From: Chloroflexi bacterium CFX4
GTDB lineage: Bacteria > Chloroflexota > Anaerolineae > Aggregatilineales > UBA2796
Length of the DNA stretch: 64,000 bases
NCBI GenBank assembly: GCA_021404685.1
Contig: QWHC01000007.1
Coordinates: 124,001-188,000, forward strand
Reading direction: 5' to 3'
Part shown: one piece after another, positions 56,714 to 64,000 of the stretch
Position numbering within the stretch: the stretch's first letter is position 1
Layout: each line of letters opens with the position of its first letter
Program-made: the position numbers and the translations under genes
Notes under the pieces: generated by a model
Databases searched by the model: none
What the model saw: the letters and a program-made list of their open reading frames with translations, nothing else
Told to the model about the DNA's origin: nothing

Positions 56714-57817
56714 CTAGACGCCTGCCTGAAGCGTTGCCGCGAAGAACGTCCAGGCCACCACCACCAGCACAATCGCCACCACAGCCGCCACAAGGCGCGG
56801 CGGAATGCGGCGTCCTTTACGCTCCACAGGCACCTCACCAAATTTCGTCCGCAGTTCTTTGGCAAAGGTTCGCACGTCTTTATGGCGGCGCGTGGGCGAC
56901 CTATCAATTGCCTGCGTCACGATCATGTTGATGTCGCTGCTGAGGTCGGTGCGATCCAGCGGCGGCGGTGAACTCGTCCGCACTTCCTGACGAACGTCTT
57001 CAGGGCGGCGCAGGCGGAAGATGTAGGGCGGACGCCCTTTCAGCATCTCATAGAGCAGCACGCCCAAGCCATACACATCGGTCTGTGCGCCATATTGCCC
57101 TTTGGGTCCGTCAATCAGCAGTTCGGGCGCAATGTAGGCAGCCATGCTGTAGCGCTCTAGCTGCTCAAAATCAATAGCGTTCGGATCATTGGCAAGGCTT
57201 AAATCCATCAGCAGCGGGCGCGGAATGCCATCACGGTCGTAGCGCACCATGATTGTATCTGGGCTAAGGTTTAGGATGAGGTGCTGCGCTTTGACATGGA
57301 CGAAGGCAGTCACATCTGCCATATTGATGGTGAGCCATGCAGCGTGCTGATACCACGGTTGCGGATTTTTGATGAGCAGATCGCGTAAGAACTCGCCTTC
57401 AGCGAAATTGTAAACAATGTAGTACTTGGTCTCGTTCCCAAAGACTGTTTTGCCATAGGGGCGCTGTTTGGCGTTGGCATCGCCCACCAGATAGGGCGGT
57501 TGTAGGACAGGTAACATCGGGTGACCACCTGCACTGGTGAGTTTCGCCATCAGTGCCGCCTCGCGCTTGATGATCTCCTCACAGCCGTTGTGCGCCACCT
57601 TGATCAAAATTGGGATGGGCTTGTTCTTCACCTTGCGGCGCGCCTCATAGAGCGCAGCCGTCTTTAGCACACGCACAAGGCGCACAATCTCAATATCACC
57701 CAAGAACTCGCCGTAGTCGAAAATTACCGAAAGTTCGCCCGCTTCCGAAATGCGAGAGGAGCCCCACATGCTGAATAAGGGCGTGATGGTATCACTTTTG
57801 GGACAGTAGCGTTTCAT
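56714..57817 (-). CDS. Membrane-anchored protein-kinase-fold protein, probable pseudokinase (EssB-like analogue)
   Basis: A 367-residue protein with a kinase fold at about residues 28-325 and one C-terminal membrane helix (about 337-358), leaving a tail of about 10 residues outside. The ATP-lysine (ILIKVAH) and helix-C Glu (KREAALMAKL) remain, and APE is kept in AYIAPELL, with DVYGLGVLLYEMLKGRPP. The HRD loop reads LILNLSPDTI, so the catalytic Asp is Asn and the Mg-binding Asn is Thr, and DFG is DLS. It should be inactive or very weak. It is divergent from the EssC-type ATPase; in Firmicutes type VII systems EssB is also a pseudokinase followed by a membrane helix. The link is inference. Confidence 0.85.
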   Translation of the reverse strand: MKRYCPKSDTITPLFSMWGSSRISEAGELSVIFDYGEFLGDIEIVRLVRVLKTAALYEARRKVKNKPIPILIKVAHNGCEEIIKREAALMAKLTSAGGHPMLPVLQPPYLVGDANAKQRPYGKTVFGNETKYYIVYNFAEGEFLRDLLIKNPQPWYQHAAWLTINMADVTAFVHVKAQHLILNLSPDTIMVRYDRDGIPRPLLMDLSLANDPNAIDFEQLERYSMAAYIAPELLIDGPKGQYGAQTDVYGLGVLLYEMLKGRPPYIFRLRRPEDVRQEVRTSSPPPLDRTDLSSDINMIVTQAIDRSPTRRHKDVRTFAKELRTKFGEVPVERKGRRIPPRLVAAVVAIVLVVVAWTFFAATLQAGV

Positions 57818-57860
57818 AGCTCACCTTGCCTCATTTTGCCCACTGAAGCCAAACCACTGT

Positions 57861-57889
57861 TTGACAAATAGCGCTATTTGCGCCATGAT
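57861..57889 (+). promoter_or_regulatory. Promoter with overlapping 16-bp palindrome upstream of the EssC-like gene
   Basis: TTGACA (57861-57866) and CATGAT (57884-57889) are 17 nt apart. The perfect palindrome CAAATAGCGCTATTTG (57865-57880) fills the spacer, where a bound regulator would block RNA polymerase. It sits in the 159-bp divergent spacer and may also affect the pseudokinase gene. Confidence 0.75.
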
Positions 57890-57976
57890 AGGACATCTAT
57901 TATGCACCCATTCCAACTTAATGCCGAATCTGCGTTGTGTCAAGCCGTGAGCAGACGTTTGGGGAGAAGTTAACCC

Positions 57977-60900
57977 ATGCCAGAGTATATTAATCGTCCG
58001 CCGCGTATTCAGCCGGAGCTGCCCTCTGGCGAGATAGATATCCCACAGCCGCCACCATTACAGAACACTTCCGGTCAGCAAACGCTGATCACCGTTGCCA
58101 TCCCGTTGATTACAATCTTGGGCTATTTGGTGGTGAGTGGCAGTGGTGGTCGCGGTGGCAGCGTGCTGTTTGTGCTGCCAATGGCGCTTTCTGTGATGGC
58201 AACCAGCGTGCTGGCTGTTTTCACATGGCTGCGCGAACGCCGCCTTGATAAAGAACGCCAAGCCGCTTATGCCCGCCGCCTGATCGAGATGCGGCGGCAA
58301 ATGATCGCCTCCCATGATAAGCAGCGCGCCTTCTACCTGCACAACAATCCTGATATGGATACGATTGTGGCGATGGTGGGCGGCGGCGAAGGCGCTGACG
58401 AATCGCGCTTGTGGGAACGCCGTGTAGATGACAATGACTTTGGCGCCATTCGTTTGGGCATGGGGTCTATGCCTTCAACCGTTGTCTATCGGGTGGATGC
58501 ACAGGATGCCAGCGCGCCGCAAACGCCGGACGCCGTCAAGCTGGCAGAAGATTCCGAGATCGTCCACGATATTCCGATCACCATCACGCTGCGCCCACGC
58601 TTGGGCGATGATGATCCAAGCGCACTGGATGACAAAAGCACGGCTCTCGGCATTAAAATTCCTTCAGTCGGTCGCTATGCAATTGGGGTTGCTGGCGCTG
58701 ATGTAGAGCGCACCAGTGATTTTGTGCGCGCCATGATCGTCAGCTATACCGCCTTCCATTCGCCCAACGACACGCGGGTATACGTGATCGGTGGCAGCGA
58801 CCGTCAAAAGGCATGGGACTGGGCGCGCTGGCTGCCGCACTGTAACACCAGCCGCAACGACTCTGGCAAGGGCGATCTGCTCGCCTTCGATCCGCGCAAG
58901 ACGCGCCGTATGTGGGATTTGCTGCAAGGCGAACTCCAGCGCCGCGCCCTACGCGCCGAAGATGAAGATGCTGGCGACGTGACGCTGCCCTTTATGGTGG
59001 TGGTCATTGACGCGCTTTCGCAGGCGGAAGATTCGCCGTTGCACAGCCTTAGCACTGAAGCAGCTGTTGCCCTGCTGCTGACACGCGGCGCAAGGCTTGG
59101 CGCAGCCGTCATTTTCGTTGTGCCAGAACGCGATCAAATTCCAAGTGAGTGCCGTGCCATCGTCGAGATGGAGATGGTCAGCGAATCACCTGCCTTCCGC
59201 TATGCCGAAATCGGCTTGAACTCAATGCGCTACGACGGCAGGGCAGACCTGATCGAAGAACGCACCGCCGATGATAAATTTGCCCGTAAACTTGCCTCCA
59301 AGATGGTGCGCGCTACGTTTGGTGCGGATGTGGCAACCTCTGTCAACCTCTTGGAACTGTTCACCTTGCTTGAGGACGGCAAGCGCAGCTACGACAGCCC
59401 GAATTCTTTCCCACTGCTGGAATGGTGGCGCGATAGCCGCAAGCCCGATAAATCCGAGTGGCTGCGTGTGCCAATTGGCTTGATGGCAGGCAACAAGGTG
59501 CGCTCGCTAACCTACGCCGCCGATATTGACGGTGTGCATGGCATGATCGCCGGCACAACCGGTTCAGGTAAATCTGAACTGCTCATCACCATCGTGGTTG
59601 GCTTGGCAATGCGCTATGATCCAAGCGTGGTGAACTTCGTGCTTGCCGACTATAAAGGTGGCACGGCATTTGATCCGTTCAAGCCGTTGCCACACGCCGT
59701 AGATGTGCTGAGCAGTCTGAATGGCTTGGCAGGCGTCCGCACCTTCACCGCCACCAAAGCAGAGATGAATCGGCGCAGCAAAATGCTGGCTGATACCAAT
59801 ACCAAGCACATTGTTCACTACCGCCAGAAAAACCTGCACGAAACACGCGAACCGTTCCCGTTCCTGTTCATCATCGTGGACGAGTTCGCCGAAATGGTGA
59901 AGGAAAATCCTGATTTTAAGGGCTACCTCGACTCCATCACACGCTTGGGACGTGCGCTTGGCGTCATGCTGATCCTTGCGACGCAGCGCCCTGCTGGCGT
60001 GGTGACCGATCAGATGCGCTCCAACATCAAGTGGCGCGTCTGCTTGCGCGTGGAGACGGCTGAGGACTCGCGTGAGTTGCTCAAGCGCTCTGATGCTGCC
60101 TTCTTGCCCAACAATATTCCCGGTCGTGGCTACTTGCAGGTTGGTAACGAGAACGTCGAGCTGCTGCAATTGGCACGTGCCGGCGCACCCTACACGGGCG
60201 ACCAAGAGGCGGCTGATCCGGCTGTGATTTGGCGTTCGCGGGGCAACCTGAGCGGCGTGATTGACGTGGCAGCCGCTGCTGCTGCGCGCAGTGCCGCTGC
60301 TGAAGTGCCAACCATCTCCGATCTGTTGGTGGCGCGCATGGCACGCCTTGCCGCTGATAACGATGACGTGGTGGCACAGAAAAAACCATGGCCCGATCCA
60401 CTGCCCGTTAAGCTCTCGCTAGATATGGAGCGCTTGCCCGGCGATATTAAGCCCAACCCGAACCTGCCCCTCAACGGCGCAGTGATTGACTGGATGGAAG
60501 AAGAAGAACCCGACTGGCGCAACGCCATTGACTGGCGTGAGCGTGCCATGCGTGCGCGCATCGGTCTGATTGATAACCCTGCCAACGCCGAACAACTGCC
60601 CCTGACGCTGGACTTCAATCGTGGTCATGCGATGGTCTTCGGCGGCAGTGGCTGGGGTAAAACGATCCTGCTTCGCACGCTGATCACGTCATTGGCTGCC
60701 ACGCACTCGCCCGCCGAACTGCACATTTACATCTTTGACTTTGGCGGCAAAGGCTTGGACGTGGTGCGCGATCTGCCGCATGTTGCCTCTTATGCGCTGC
60801 CCAGCCAAGATGAGCGCGTCACGGCGATCATGCGCCGCATTCAGGATGAACTGGAACAGCGCAAAGCCCTGCTCAGCCAAACGCGTACCGATAACATCGC

Positions 60901-63900
60901 CGAATATAACGCGGCGCACCCTGAAAAACCTGTGCCAGCCATGCTGGTTGTCATTGATAACTTCATGGAACTGCGCGAGTCTTACGAGTCGTTGCTGCCC
61001 GAACTGACCACCTACCTGCGCGATGGGCGCGCCAACGGCGTGTACTTCATCTTCACCTCGCAGCAGCCGAACTCCATCGCCAACAAGATGTTCAACATGA
61101 TCACGGAGCGCATGACCTTCCGCCTGCCCGATGTAAGCGACTATTCGGGTGTGGTTGGGCGTGTTGGCTCACAACTCCCCGATGTTGGCGGGCGCGGCTT
61201 CATTCAATATGAGGGCGAGGCGCTCGAAATGCAGATCGCCATGCCCATCAGCCTGACGGTCGAAGATGAGCAGGCGGGCTTGGATAACACCAAGAAGCTG
61301 GCGCTCTTAGTAGACCGCATGAACAAAGCCTGGGGCGACCGTCCACGTCCGCAGAGCGTTGACCTTGTCAAGGCGCTCTCGCTGATGGAACTCTTTGAAC
61401 TGCTCGATAAGCGCGATTACAAGACCGTGCTGGAGTTCCCCATCCTAGAATGGTGGCGCGAAAGCCGCAAGGCAAGCAAGTCCGAGTGGCCCAAAGCACC
61501 CATCGGCTTGGTGACGGGCAATAAAGTTCGCTCGATCATCTTTGACCAGAACATAGACGGTGTGCATGGCATGGTTGCCGGCACGACTGGTTCGGGTAAA
61601 TCCGAACTGCTGCTAACACTCGTGGCAGGCGTCGCCATGCGCTACGATCCGAGCGTGGTCAACTTCATCTTGGCGGACTATAAAGGCGGTAGCGCCTTCA
61701 CGCCTGTGGAAGCACTGCCACACGCCGTAGATATCGTGACTAACCTGCAAGGCATGGCAGGTGCGCGCACGTTCATCGCTATGCGCGCCGAGATGAACCG
61801 CCGTTCGGCGCTTCTAGCGGTCACTTCCACCAAGCATATTGTGGAATATCGCCAGAAGAATCTGCACGAAACACGCGAACCCTTCCCGTTCCTGTTCGTG
61901 ATTGTGGACGAATTCGCCGAAATGGTGAAGGAAAATCCAGAGTTCAAGGGTAACCTCGACTCGATCACGCGTTTGGGACGTGCGCTTGGCTTGTTCCTGA
62001 TCTTGGCGACGCAGCGCCCGGCTGGCGTGGTGACCGACCAAATGCGCTCCAATATGAAGTGGCGCGTCTGCCTGCGTGTGGAAACCGCACCCGACTCCCG
62101 TGAGTTGCTCAAGCGTGATGATGCTGCTTACCTGCCCAACACCGTTCCCGGTCGTGGCTATGTGCAGGTCGGTAACGATAACATTGAGCTGATGCAGGTG
62201 GCGCGTGCCGGCGGTCCTTACAGCGGTGCGCTGCCTGACTATTTGCAGGAACAGTATAGCGGTGATGTACCTGCGCTCACCGACGTGCTTTCCTACATGA
62301 TGCGCCACATGATGGAAACCAACCCTGATGTGTTGGAGCAGAAGAAGCCTTATCCCGATCCACTGCCCAAGCTGCTCACCCTTGATCAGCAACGCTTGGA
62401 GAAGGATTTTGAGGACAATCCGCTCATGCCACTCAGCCGCCCACTCGCCGAGTGGATGGCAGGGCGCGGTAAGTGGCAGGGCATTGATTGGGCGCGCAAC
62501 GGAATGCGTGCCTCGGTCGGCTTGATTGATAATCCGGCACGTGCTGAGCAGCTAGCGCTCACCTTCAACTTTAATCGTGGTCATGCGGTGGTGGCAGGCG
62601 CTAGCGGTTCGGGCAAAACAATCCTGCTCCGCACGGTTGCCTCTGCGCTGGCTGCCACACACTCGCCCAAAGAACTCCACATCTACATGATGGACTTTGG
62701 CGGTAAAGGCTTGGATGTGCTGCTTGATCTGCCGCACGTTGCCTGTTCGATCTACCCTTCGGAAGATGACCGTGTGGCTGCTTTGCTGCGCCGCCTTTCC
62801 GATGAGCTGGAGCAGCGCAAGGCATTGCTGAGCCAAGCCCGTGCTGACGATCTGGCAATCTTCAATGCACAGTATCCTGATAAGGCGCTGCCTGCCATTC
62901 TGGTGCTGATTGATAACTTTGCCGAGTTCCGCGAGAACTATGAGAACCTGCTACCCGAACTGACCGCCATTGTGCGCGATGCACGTGCCAACGGCATTCA
63001 CTTTATGGTGACGACCCAGCAGATCGGCGCGCTGCCCAGCAAACTCTACAATATGTTTGCGACGCGGCTCACCTTCAAGCTGACAGATGCCTCTGAATAT
63101 GGCATGGTCGTTGGGCGTAACATGCCAAACCTGCCCGATATTCCAGGACGCGGCTTTATCCCTGTGGATAACGAACCACTGGAAATGCAAGTGGCGCAGC
63201 CGCTCAGCGTGAGCGAAGAAGAAGCTAAGCAGGGCTTGGATGCCACCAAGAAGCTGGCAAAGGTCGTGGCGATTATGCAAGAGGCATGGGGCGAACGCCC
63301 AGTGCCGCAGAGCGTTGACCTTGTCCGCCAGCTCTCACTGATGCAGCTTTTCGAGTTCCTCGATAAGCGCGAATACAAATCCGTGCTGGACTTCCCTATC
63401 CTAGAGTGGTGGCGCGAAAGCCGCAAGCCTGAAAACGCTGAATGGTTGAAAGCGCCCGTTGGCTTGGTAACGGGCAACAAAGTGCGCTCGCTCATCTTTG
63501 ACCAGCAGATTGACGGTGTGCATGGCATGGTCGCCGGCACGACTGGCTCTGGTAAATCTGAACTACTGCTGACGGTCGTGGCAGGGCTTGCTATGCGCTA
63601 CGATCCGAGTGTGGTCAACTTCATCTTGGCAGACTACAAAGGCGGTAGCGCCTTCGATCCATTCAATGGCTTGCCGCACGCTGTGGACATCGTGACCAAC
63701 CTGCAAGGCTTGGCGGGCGCACGCACCTTCACCGCTATGAAGGCGGAAATGAACCGCCGTTCGGCGTTGCTGGCTGTCACGCAGACCAAGCACGTTGTGG
63801 ATTACCGCCGCCGTAACCTGCATGAGCGCCGTGAGCCGTTCCCGTTCCTGTTCGTGATTGTGGACGAATTCGCCGAAATGGTGAAGGAAAATCCAGAGTT

Positions 63901-64000
63901 CAAGGGCAACCTCGACTCGATCACGCGCTTGGGACGTGCGCTCGGCGTCTGCCTGATCTTGGCAACGCAGCGCCCTGCCGGCGTGGTGACTGACCAAATG
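57977..64000 (+). CDS. essC: EssC/EccC-type type VII secretion FtsK/SpoIIIE ATPase, expanded (3' end outside window)
   Basis: An open frame of at least 2,008 codons without a stop. Two N-terminal membrane helices (about residues 37-55 and 61-85) are followed by a basic helix and the EccC-like LWERRVDDNDFGAIRLG (near 144). A degenerate ATPase-like domain lacks a P-loop (VVVIDAL near 342). The motor domains then follow: A1 (P-loop GTTGSGKS, residue about 526; IIVDEFAEM), B1 (GGSGWGKT, about 889; VVIDNFMEL), A2 (about 1202), B2 (GASGSGKT, about 1541) and A3 (about 1854), cut by the window end. Canonical members have three. No FHA domain is seen. GGGGAG precedes the ATG. The protein should drive export of WXG100-type or LXG-type substrates. 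The gene family is firm; the symbol is by analogy. Confidence 0.93.
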   Translation, partial: MPEYINRPPRIQPELPSGEIDIPQPPPLQNTSGQQTLITVAIPLITILGYLVVSGSGGRGGSVLFVLPMALSVMATSVLAVFTWLRERRLDKERQAAYARRLIEMRRQMIASHDKQRAFYLHNNPDMDTIVAMVGGGEGADESRLWERRVDDNDFGAIRLGMGSMPSTVVYRVDAQDASAPQTPDAVKLAEDSEIVHDIPITITLRPRLGDDDPSALDDKSTALGIKIPSVGRYAIGVAGADVERTSDFVRAMIVSYTAFHSPNDTRVYVIGGSDRQKAWDWARWLPHCNTSRNDSGKGDLLAFDPRKTRRMWDLLQGELQRRALRAEDEDAGDVTLPFMVVVIDALSQAEDSPLHSLSTEAAVALLLTRGARLGAAVIFVVPERDQIPSECRAIVEMEMVSESPAFRYAEIGLNSMRYDGRADLIEERTADDKFARKLASKMVRATFGADVATSVNLLELFTLLEDGKRSYDSPNSFPLLEWWRDSRKPDKSEWLRVPIGLMAGNKVRSLTYAADIDGVHGMIAGTTGSGKSELLITIVVGLAMRYDPSVVNFVLADYKGGTAFDPFKPLPHAVDVLSSLNGLAGVRTFTATKAEMNRRSKMLADTNTKHIVHYRQKNLHETREPFPFLFIIVDEFAEMVKENPDFKGYLDSITRLGRALGVMLILATQRPAGVVTDQMRSNIKWRVCLRVETAEDSRELLKRSDAAFLPNNIPGRGYLQVGNENVELLQLARAGAPYTGDQEAADPAVIWRSRGNLSGVIDVAAAAAARSAAAEVPTISDLLVARMARLAADNDDVVAQKKPWPDPLPVKLSLDMERLPGDIKPNPNLPLNGAVIDWMEEEEPDWRNAIDWRERAMRARIGLIDNPANAEQLPLTLDFNRGHAMVFGGSGWGKTILLRTLITSLAATHSPAELHIYIFDFGGKGLDVVRDLPHVASYALPSQDERVTAIMRRIQDELEQRKALLSQTRTDNIAEYNAAHPEKPVPAMLVVIDNFMELRESYESLLPELTTYLRDGRANGVYFIFTSQQPNSIANKMFNMITERMTFRLPDVSDYSGVVGRVGSQLPDVGGRGFIQYEGEALEMQIAMPISLTVEDEQAGLDNTKKLALLVDRMNKAWGDRPRPQSVDLVKALSLMELFELLDKRDYKTVLEFPILEWWRESRKASKSEWPKAPIGLVTGNKVRSIIFDQNIDGVHGMVAGTTGSGKSELLLTLVAGVAMRYDPSVVNFILADYKGGSAFTPVEALPHAVDIVTNLQGMAGARTFIAMRAEMNRRSALLAVTSTKHIVEYRQKNLHETREPFPFLFVIVDEFAEMVKENPEFKGNLDSITRLGRALGLFLILATQRPAGVVTDQMRSNMKWRVCLRVETAPDSRELLKRDDAAYLPNTVPGRGYVQVGNDNIELMQVARAGGPYSGALPDYLQEQYSGDVPALTDVLSYMMRHMMETNPDVLEQKKPYPDPLPKLLTLDQQRLEKDFEDNPLMPLSRPLAEWMAGRGKWQGIDWARNGMRASVGLIDNPARAEQLALTFNFNRGHAVVAGASGSGKTILLRTVASALAATHSPKELHIYMMDFGGKGLDVLLDLPHVACSIYPSEDDRVAALLRRLSDELEQRKALLSQARADDLAIFNAQYPDKALPAILVLIDNFAEFRENYENLLPELTAIVRDARANGIHFMVTTQQIGALPSKLYNMFATRLTFKLTDASEYGMVVGRNMPNLPDIPGRGFIPVDNEPLEMQVAQPLSVSEEEAKQGLDATKKLAKVVAIMQEAWGERPVPQSVDLVRQLSLMQLFEFLDKREYKSVLDFPILEWWRESRKPENAEWLKAPVGLVTGNKVRSLIFDQQIDGVHGMVAGTTGSGKSELLLTVVAGLAMRYDPSVVNFILADYKGGSAFDPFNGLPHAVDIVTNLQGLAGARTFTAMKAEMNRRSALLAVTQTKHVVDYRRRNLHERREPFPFLFVIVDEFAEMVKENPEFKGNLDSITRLGRALGVCLILATQRPAGVVTDQM
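59348..61381 (+). repeat. Motor repeat unit 1 (A1-B1) of the EssC-like gene
   Basis: A 678-codon unit running from LLELF to just before LMELF. It holds an A-type domain (P-loop at 59552, Walker B with Glu) and a B-type domain (P-loop at 60641, Walker B ending in Asp-Asn). It is the most diverged of the three units. Confidence 0.85.
61382..63337 (+). repeat. Motor repeat unit 2 (A2-B2) of the EssC-like gene
   Basis: A 652-codon unit from LMELF to just before LMQLF, with P-loops at 61580 and 62597. Its A part is close to unit 3 at DNA level: the block around 61889-61940 is almost identical to 63837-63890. Confidence 0.88.
63338..64000 (+). repeat. Motor repeat unit 3 (A3, partial) of the EssC-like gene
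   Basis: The unit begins at LMQLFEFLDKREY and has a P-loop at 63536. The window ends shortly after the LATQRPAGVVTDQM motif, before any B-type domain, so it cannot be said whether a B3 domain follows. Confidence 0.88.

Follow-up and report, generated by a model that had tools for sequence, protein, structure and literature searches.

A membrane-anchored pseudokinase family paired with one EssC clade as a probable type VII secretion subunit in Chloroflexota

The window analyzed in this study, a stretch of 64,000 nucleotides from Chloroflexi bacterium CFX4, encodes a membrane-anchored pseudokinase (PK) beside the EssC motor gene of a type VII secretion system (T7SS) (Table 1). PK is probably a dedicated noncatalytic, membrane-anchored subunit of a Chloroflexota T7SS, whose conserved set consists of PK, EssC, a protein with a ubiquitin-like and an FHA domain (UbFHA), and WXG100 proteins. 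By computational analysis, the pseudokinase character is family-wide, and the gene set is conserved.

Table 1. Features of the pseudokinase locus, in positions of the window
Feature	Position	Strand	Remarks
Membrane-anchored Hanks-fold pseudokinase (PK)	56714..57817	-	367 aa; C-terminal transmembrane helix 340-366
Intergenic region between the divergent PK and EssC genes	57818..57976	.	about 160 nt
EssC/EccC-type T7SS motor, segment within the window	57977..64000	+	whole ORF 2854 aa, ends 2541 bases beyond the window

The Pfam families matched above cut-off by PK were protein kinase families only (Pkinase, 41.7 bits; cut-off, 31.7). A preliminary description, made from the letters of the window, had claimed Asn for the HRD Asp, Thr for the catalytic-loop Asn, and DLS for DFG, and all three changes are present in the sequence as Asn183, Thr188, and Asp205-Leu-Ser; Lys73, Glu86, and Asp205 are retained. 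The AlphaFold2 model, built with 38 orthologues, had a pLDDT of 90.8 and a pTM of 0.86. It closes with the single terminal helix that the same description had proposed as a membrane anchor, and the chain runs about 7 residues past the most hydrophobic 19-mer, in keeping with the claim of almost no external domain. Among the 50 structure matches listed for the model, the closest solved folds were the Mycobacterium tuberculosis Ser/Thr kinases PknB and PknA, with PknB at the top (Z score of 28.9, rmsd of 2.1 over 251 residues). The sequence profile of the PK family matched PknB at 4e-23, which agrees with the fold comparison. With its Pkinase match and protein-kinase fold, PK has a Hanks-type kinase fold, and the model indicates a complete Hanks kinase domain. 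PknB and PknA differ from PK in that they are catalytically competent and are not T7SS subunits.

The family was collected from several samples. In a class sample of 150 genomes, five full-length orthologues were found outside the CFX4 genome at 34 to 44% identity, followed by a sharp drop. An alignment-based scan of named genomes gave 42 orthologous loci, essentially all of which carried titles of Chloroflexota (Anaerolineae, Chloroflexales, Thermoflexus, Caldilineales, and others); the one locus with a Bacteroidetes title is apparently misbinned. A phylum sample added 10 further Chloroflexota genomes with PK, from which 6 loci were retrieved. One locus (L109) was left out of the family as an unrelated active kinase. 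Residues were counted in an alignment of 48 PK sequences, and most of the orthologues came from metagenome-assembled genomes.

The HRD Asp was absent from all 48 sequences, with G in 16, N in 14, C in 11, and A in 7 at its site; the catalytic-loop Asn was likewise absent from every one. Thus, none of the 48 orthologues has the HRD Asp and catalytic-loop Asn of an active Hanks-type Ser/Thr kinase (PF00069), and an ordinary active kinase was ruled out as the identity of PK. The glycine-rich loop is also gone from the alignment. Because these elements are lost family-wide, the PK proteins are judged by sequence to be pseudokinases dead in catalysis with the residues of the nucleotide pocket kept: the β3 Lys (Lys73), the αC Glu (Glu86), and the DFG Asp (Asp205) were conserved in 48 of 48. 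An N-terminal Cys4 motif, resembling a zinc ribbon, is present in most orthologues and lost in the window's own subclade. The tail after the transmembrane helix measured 1 to 30 residues in 41 orthologues, none of which had an external domain. In the tree, one branch with a support of 100 divides the PK family from the active Chloroflexota kinases sampled.

The EssC protein of the window consists of a hydrophobic N-terminal membrane segment followed by seven FtsK/SpoIIIE modules. It scored 1696 bits against TIGR03928 (cut-off, 778), a total summed over the repeated modules, and the locus by this match contains the EssC/EccC motor of a T7SS. The divergent EssC-like neighbor noticed previously is therefore present on the opposite strand, and its co-occurrence with PK in Chloroflexota, which had been suggested as a check, proved to be a conserved linkage. 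PK and EssC were neighbors in all 42 measured loci with both genes called, with gaps of up to 802 bp; 14 pairs lay on the same strand, and the rest lay on opposite strands, almost always in the divergent arrangement of the window. Outside these 42, search coordinates placed PK directly adjoining EssC at L100, L107, and L147, and the L088 and L093 loci end at PK. Where the contig reaches far enough, the only exceptions to the linkage were two closely related, near-identical genomes (L075 and L077). Both hold an EssC elsewhere that is 94 to 95% identical to the PK-linked form, intact in one genome (G431) and as two contig-end fragments in the other (G432).

In the EssC tree, 34 PK-linked EssC proteins fell on one side of a branch with a support of 100. 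The 10 EssC proteins lacking a PK neighbor fell outside it, including the second EssC of the CFX4 genome. This second gene (G000:C31:125111-128767, L061) encodes an ordinary three-module EssC with an adjoining WXG100 gene and no PK. In the class sample of 150 genomes, the 6 genomes with PK were exactly the 6 with the PK-linked EssC clade, and the pairing is exclusive in the genomes sampled. The preliminary description would have been contradicted by a PK lying among ordinary active kinases with no conservation beside EssC; what was found is the separate, fully supported branch together with the linkage. A chance neighborhood of the two genes was ruled out by the recurrent gene families and the linkage data.

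Clustering of all PK neighbors gave only four recurrent families, namely, PK, EssC, WXG100, and UbFHA. The gene after the window EssC encodes UbFHA, a 233-aa protein that combines a YukD ubiquitin-like domain with an FHA domain, the latter of which retains the phosphothreonine-type residues Gly-Arg and Ser-Arg. The window EssC itself has no space for an N-terminal FHA domain ahead of its first membrane helix. Of the 42 measured loci, 30 had WXG100-like genes no farther than 5 kb from PK, and the WXG100 component of a T7SS is thus present at most of them. In the CFX4 genome, WXG100 genes are dispersed, and none lies inside the PK/EssC cluster: 24 matches were distributed over many contigs, 21 of them over the family cut-off (e.g., L046-L050 and L064:5329-6501). 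Many of these proteins are fused to C-terminal regions of 300 to 550 aa, and such fusions, scattered away from the cluster, look like candidate secreted substrates or effectors.

Some clusters also encode active kinases. At L140:11689-12819, a 376-aa membrane kinase that has the HRDIKPGN motif intact and no external domain adjoins WXG100 genes as well as an EssC that has no PK; it is a possible catalytically active counterpart of PK. This kinase was considered as a sister of the PK family, and the tree gave no reliable join (long branches). A 737-aa protein with vWA and FHA domains (L090:13126-15336) is encoded near a PK/EssC cluster and recalls TscE, the vWA protein of T7SSc. Besides this locus, several others have FHA-bearing open reading frames of similar size.

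The motor differs among loci in the number of its ATPase modules. EssC usually carries three modules with a Walker A motif (D1, D2, and D3). The window EssC has seven Walker A motifs, arranged as three D1-D2 pairs followed by D3. Seven-module EssC proteins were found in the window lineage (L001:5977-14541) and in a second lineage inside the PK-linked clade (L089-L105 and L145), and an intermediate form with five motifs was found at L069. In a tree of the D1 copies, those of each lineage grouped together, with single-copy EssC proteins in between. This grouping suggests that the D1-D2 pair was tripled at least twice independently, unless an older event was erased by recurrent gene conversion inside the individual lineages. 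EccC of T7SSa is reported to act as a hexamer (PMC8131196, PMC8232910). With three D1-D2 pairs in one chain, the ring may perhaps be built from fewer, covalently linked chains.

Apart from EssB, the published protein most analogous to PK is TscD, a Hanks kinase that is anchored in the membrane and encoded in the T7SSc cluster (Garrett et al. 2024, PMC11217815). T7SSc also resembles the present system in having an EssC without FHA and a YukD-like protein, TscB (PMC11217815). However, conservation of the active site is reported for TscD (PMC11217815), whereas all PK members have a dead one; in this respect the PK family is not of the TscD type. TraF of the pIP501 type IV secretion system is likewise a membrane pseudokinase that acts as a secretion-system hub, but it resembles YukC, including the C-terminal soluble domain, and serves a conjugation system without EssC or FHA (PMC13037476). 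T7SSc-j has been described in Bacillota and Actinomycetota only (PMC11217815). In the open-access literature on T7SS of Chloroflexota, Anaerolineae, or Herpetosiphon, we found no description of a PK/EssC/UbFHA system, and an earlier account may exist; WXG100 sequences from Chloroflexota are included in other work (PMC3935865, PMC10765036).

By analogy with T7SSb, the kinase domain of PK would be a membrane-located scaffold for docking and would serve its motor as EssB serves that of T7SSb. PK would act as the membrane anchor and hub and would dock on the EssC motor via the ubiquitin-like/FHA adaptor. UbFHA would bridge motor and PK, with its FHA domain as the likely contact. The bridging role is suggested by the binding of the T7SSb pseudokinase EssB/YukC to the N-terminal FHA domains of EssC, which is independent of phosphorylation (PMC9600267), by the lack of FHA on EssC here, and by the contact of the equivalent of the ubiquitin-like domain with the motor in T7SSa (stated in PMC11217815). 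One finding speaks against the docking model. The FHA domains of T7SSb have lost the phosphothreonine-binding Gly-Arg and Ser-Arg, whereas UbFHA keeps both. Because these residues are kept, the true partner of the FHA domain may be a protein that one of the active kinases encoded in some clusters has phosphorylated.

The preliminary description had asked whether PK is an EssB analogue outside Firmicutes, through true homology or convergence. The analogy stands, as a membrane pseudokinase is conserved beside EssC, but homology gained no support. EssB/YukC of T7SSb in Bacillota has the same order of a cytoplasmic pseudokinase domain and one transmembrane helix, is encoded beside EssC, and has all three catalytic motifs degraded (PMC12599244); T7SSb also contains a YukD-like protein and an FHA domain within the same system. 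PK, with a pseudokinase domain and a single transmembrane helix, shares the EssB-like architecture, and its position, its topology, and its adjoining EssC would suit a true EssB/YukC homologue, vertical or transferred, from which the extracellular domain had been lost while the kinase domain and membrane helix remained. Such an origin is nevertheless improbable. PF10140 (YukC/EssB) had no match in 38 PK members at an E value of ≤1 and none in the CFX4 genome, with a positive Bacillus subtilis control. Comparison of the PK profile with an annotated EssB by hhalign gave no signal, in a weak comparison in which EssB was a single sequence. EssB/YukC was absent from the 50 structure matches listed for the model, a listing that is not exhaustive and whose omission of EssB carries no weight here. 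PK matches PknB in profile and PknB and PknA in the top listed folds; it is a full-size PknB-like fold with Lys, Glu, and the DFG Asp kept, and no member carries after its short tail the C-terminal extracellular dimerization domain of the EssB type. The T7SSb set of EsaA, EssA, and EssB was also not found: EsaA had no match over cut-off, and EssA had only a subthreshold one (18 versus 24.1 bits), with the B. subtilis control positive for both. In addition, FHA is on EssC in T7SSb and on the ubiquitin-like subunit here. Most likely, a PknB-like or TscD-like Ser/Thr kinase was the source of the PK fold, in a recruitment separate from that of EssB. The active membrane kinase at a sister Chloroflexota EssC locus (L140) makes a route from an active T7SS kinase to PK plausible, although the tree cannot place its sequence.

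A second alternative, somewhat less improbable than EssB homology but still unlikely, is that PK serves as a nucleotide-sensing switch, which binds ATP via Lys73, Glu86, and Asp205 and relays the state of the bound nucleotide to the motor, or as a transferase, weakly active or atypical, that modifies a partner in a noncanonical way. The Lys-Glu pair and the DFG Asp are invariant, which suggests selection on the nucleotide pocket beyond bare scaffolding, since a simple scaffold would not need them; the phosphothreonine-type site of the partner FHA domain also favors this reading. On the other hand, none of the residues at the HRD Asp site (G, N, C, or A) can stand in as a base, the Asn that would bind Mg is missing, and there is no glycine-rich loop. 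It is hardly credible that PK is an ordinary Ser/Thr kinase decaying by chance beside EssC. Such genomes do hold many Ser/Thr kinases, but open frames, invariant residues, and EssC linkage are kept across orthologues that are 32 to 80% identical, and the PK sequences group as a single clade apart from the active kinases sampled. Loss of the catalytic residues together with a pairing kept down to 32% identity goes beyond chance. The noncatalytic subunit remains the reading that we consider probable.

Whether these loci constitute a separate Chloroflexota T7SS subtype is, in our judgment, evenly balanced. Such a subtype would have a dead kinase-fold membrane subunit recruited independently of EssB, FHA on the ubiquitin-like subunit rather than on the motor, and a D1-D2 pair tripled twice independently, perhaps giving a ring of fewer covalently linked chains. 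The T7SS subtype survey available to us is confined to Bacillota and Actinomycetota (PMC11217815). The doubled and tripled EssC modules are a natural experiment on the construction of the T7SS ATPase ring. The PK system would also make the role of the kinase fold testable, as FHA docking versus nucleotide sensing. A four-gene system with its own PK would make a dead kinase fold beside the motor a recurrent design and not a Firmicutes oddity.
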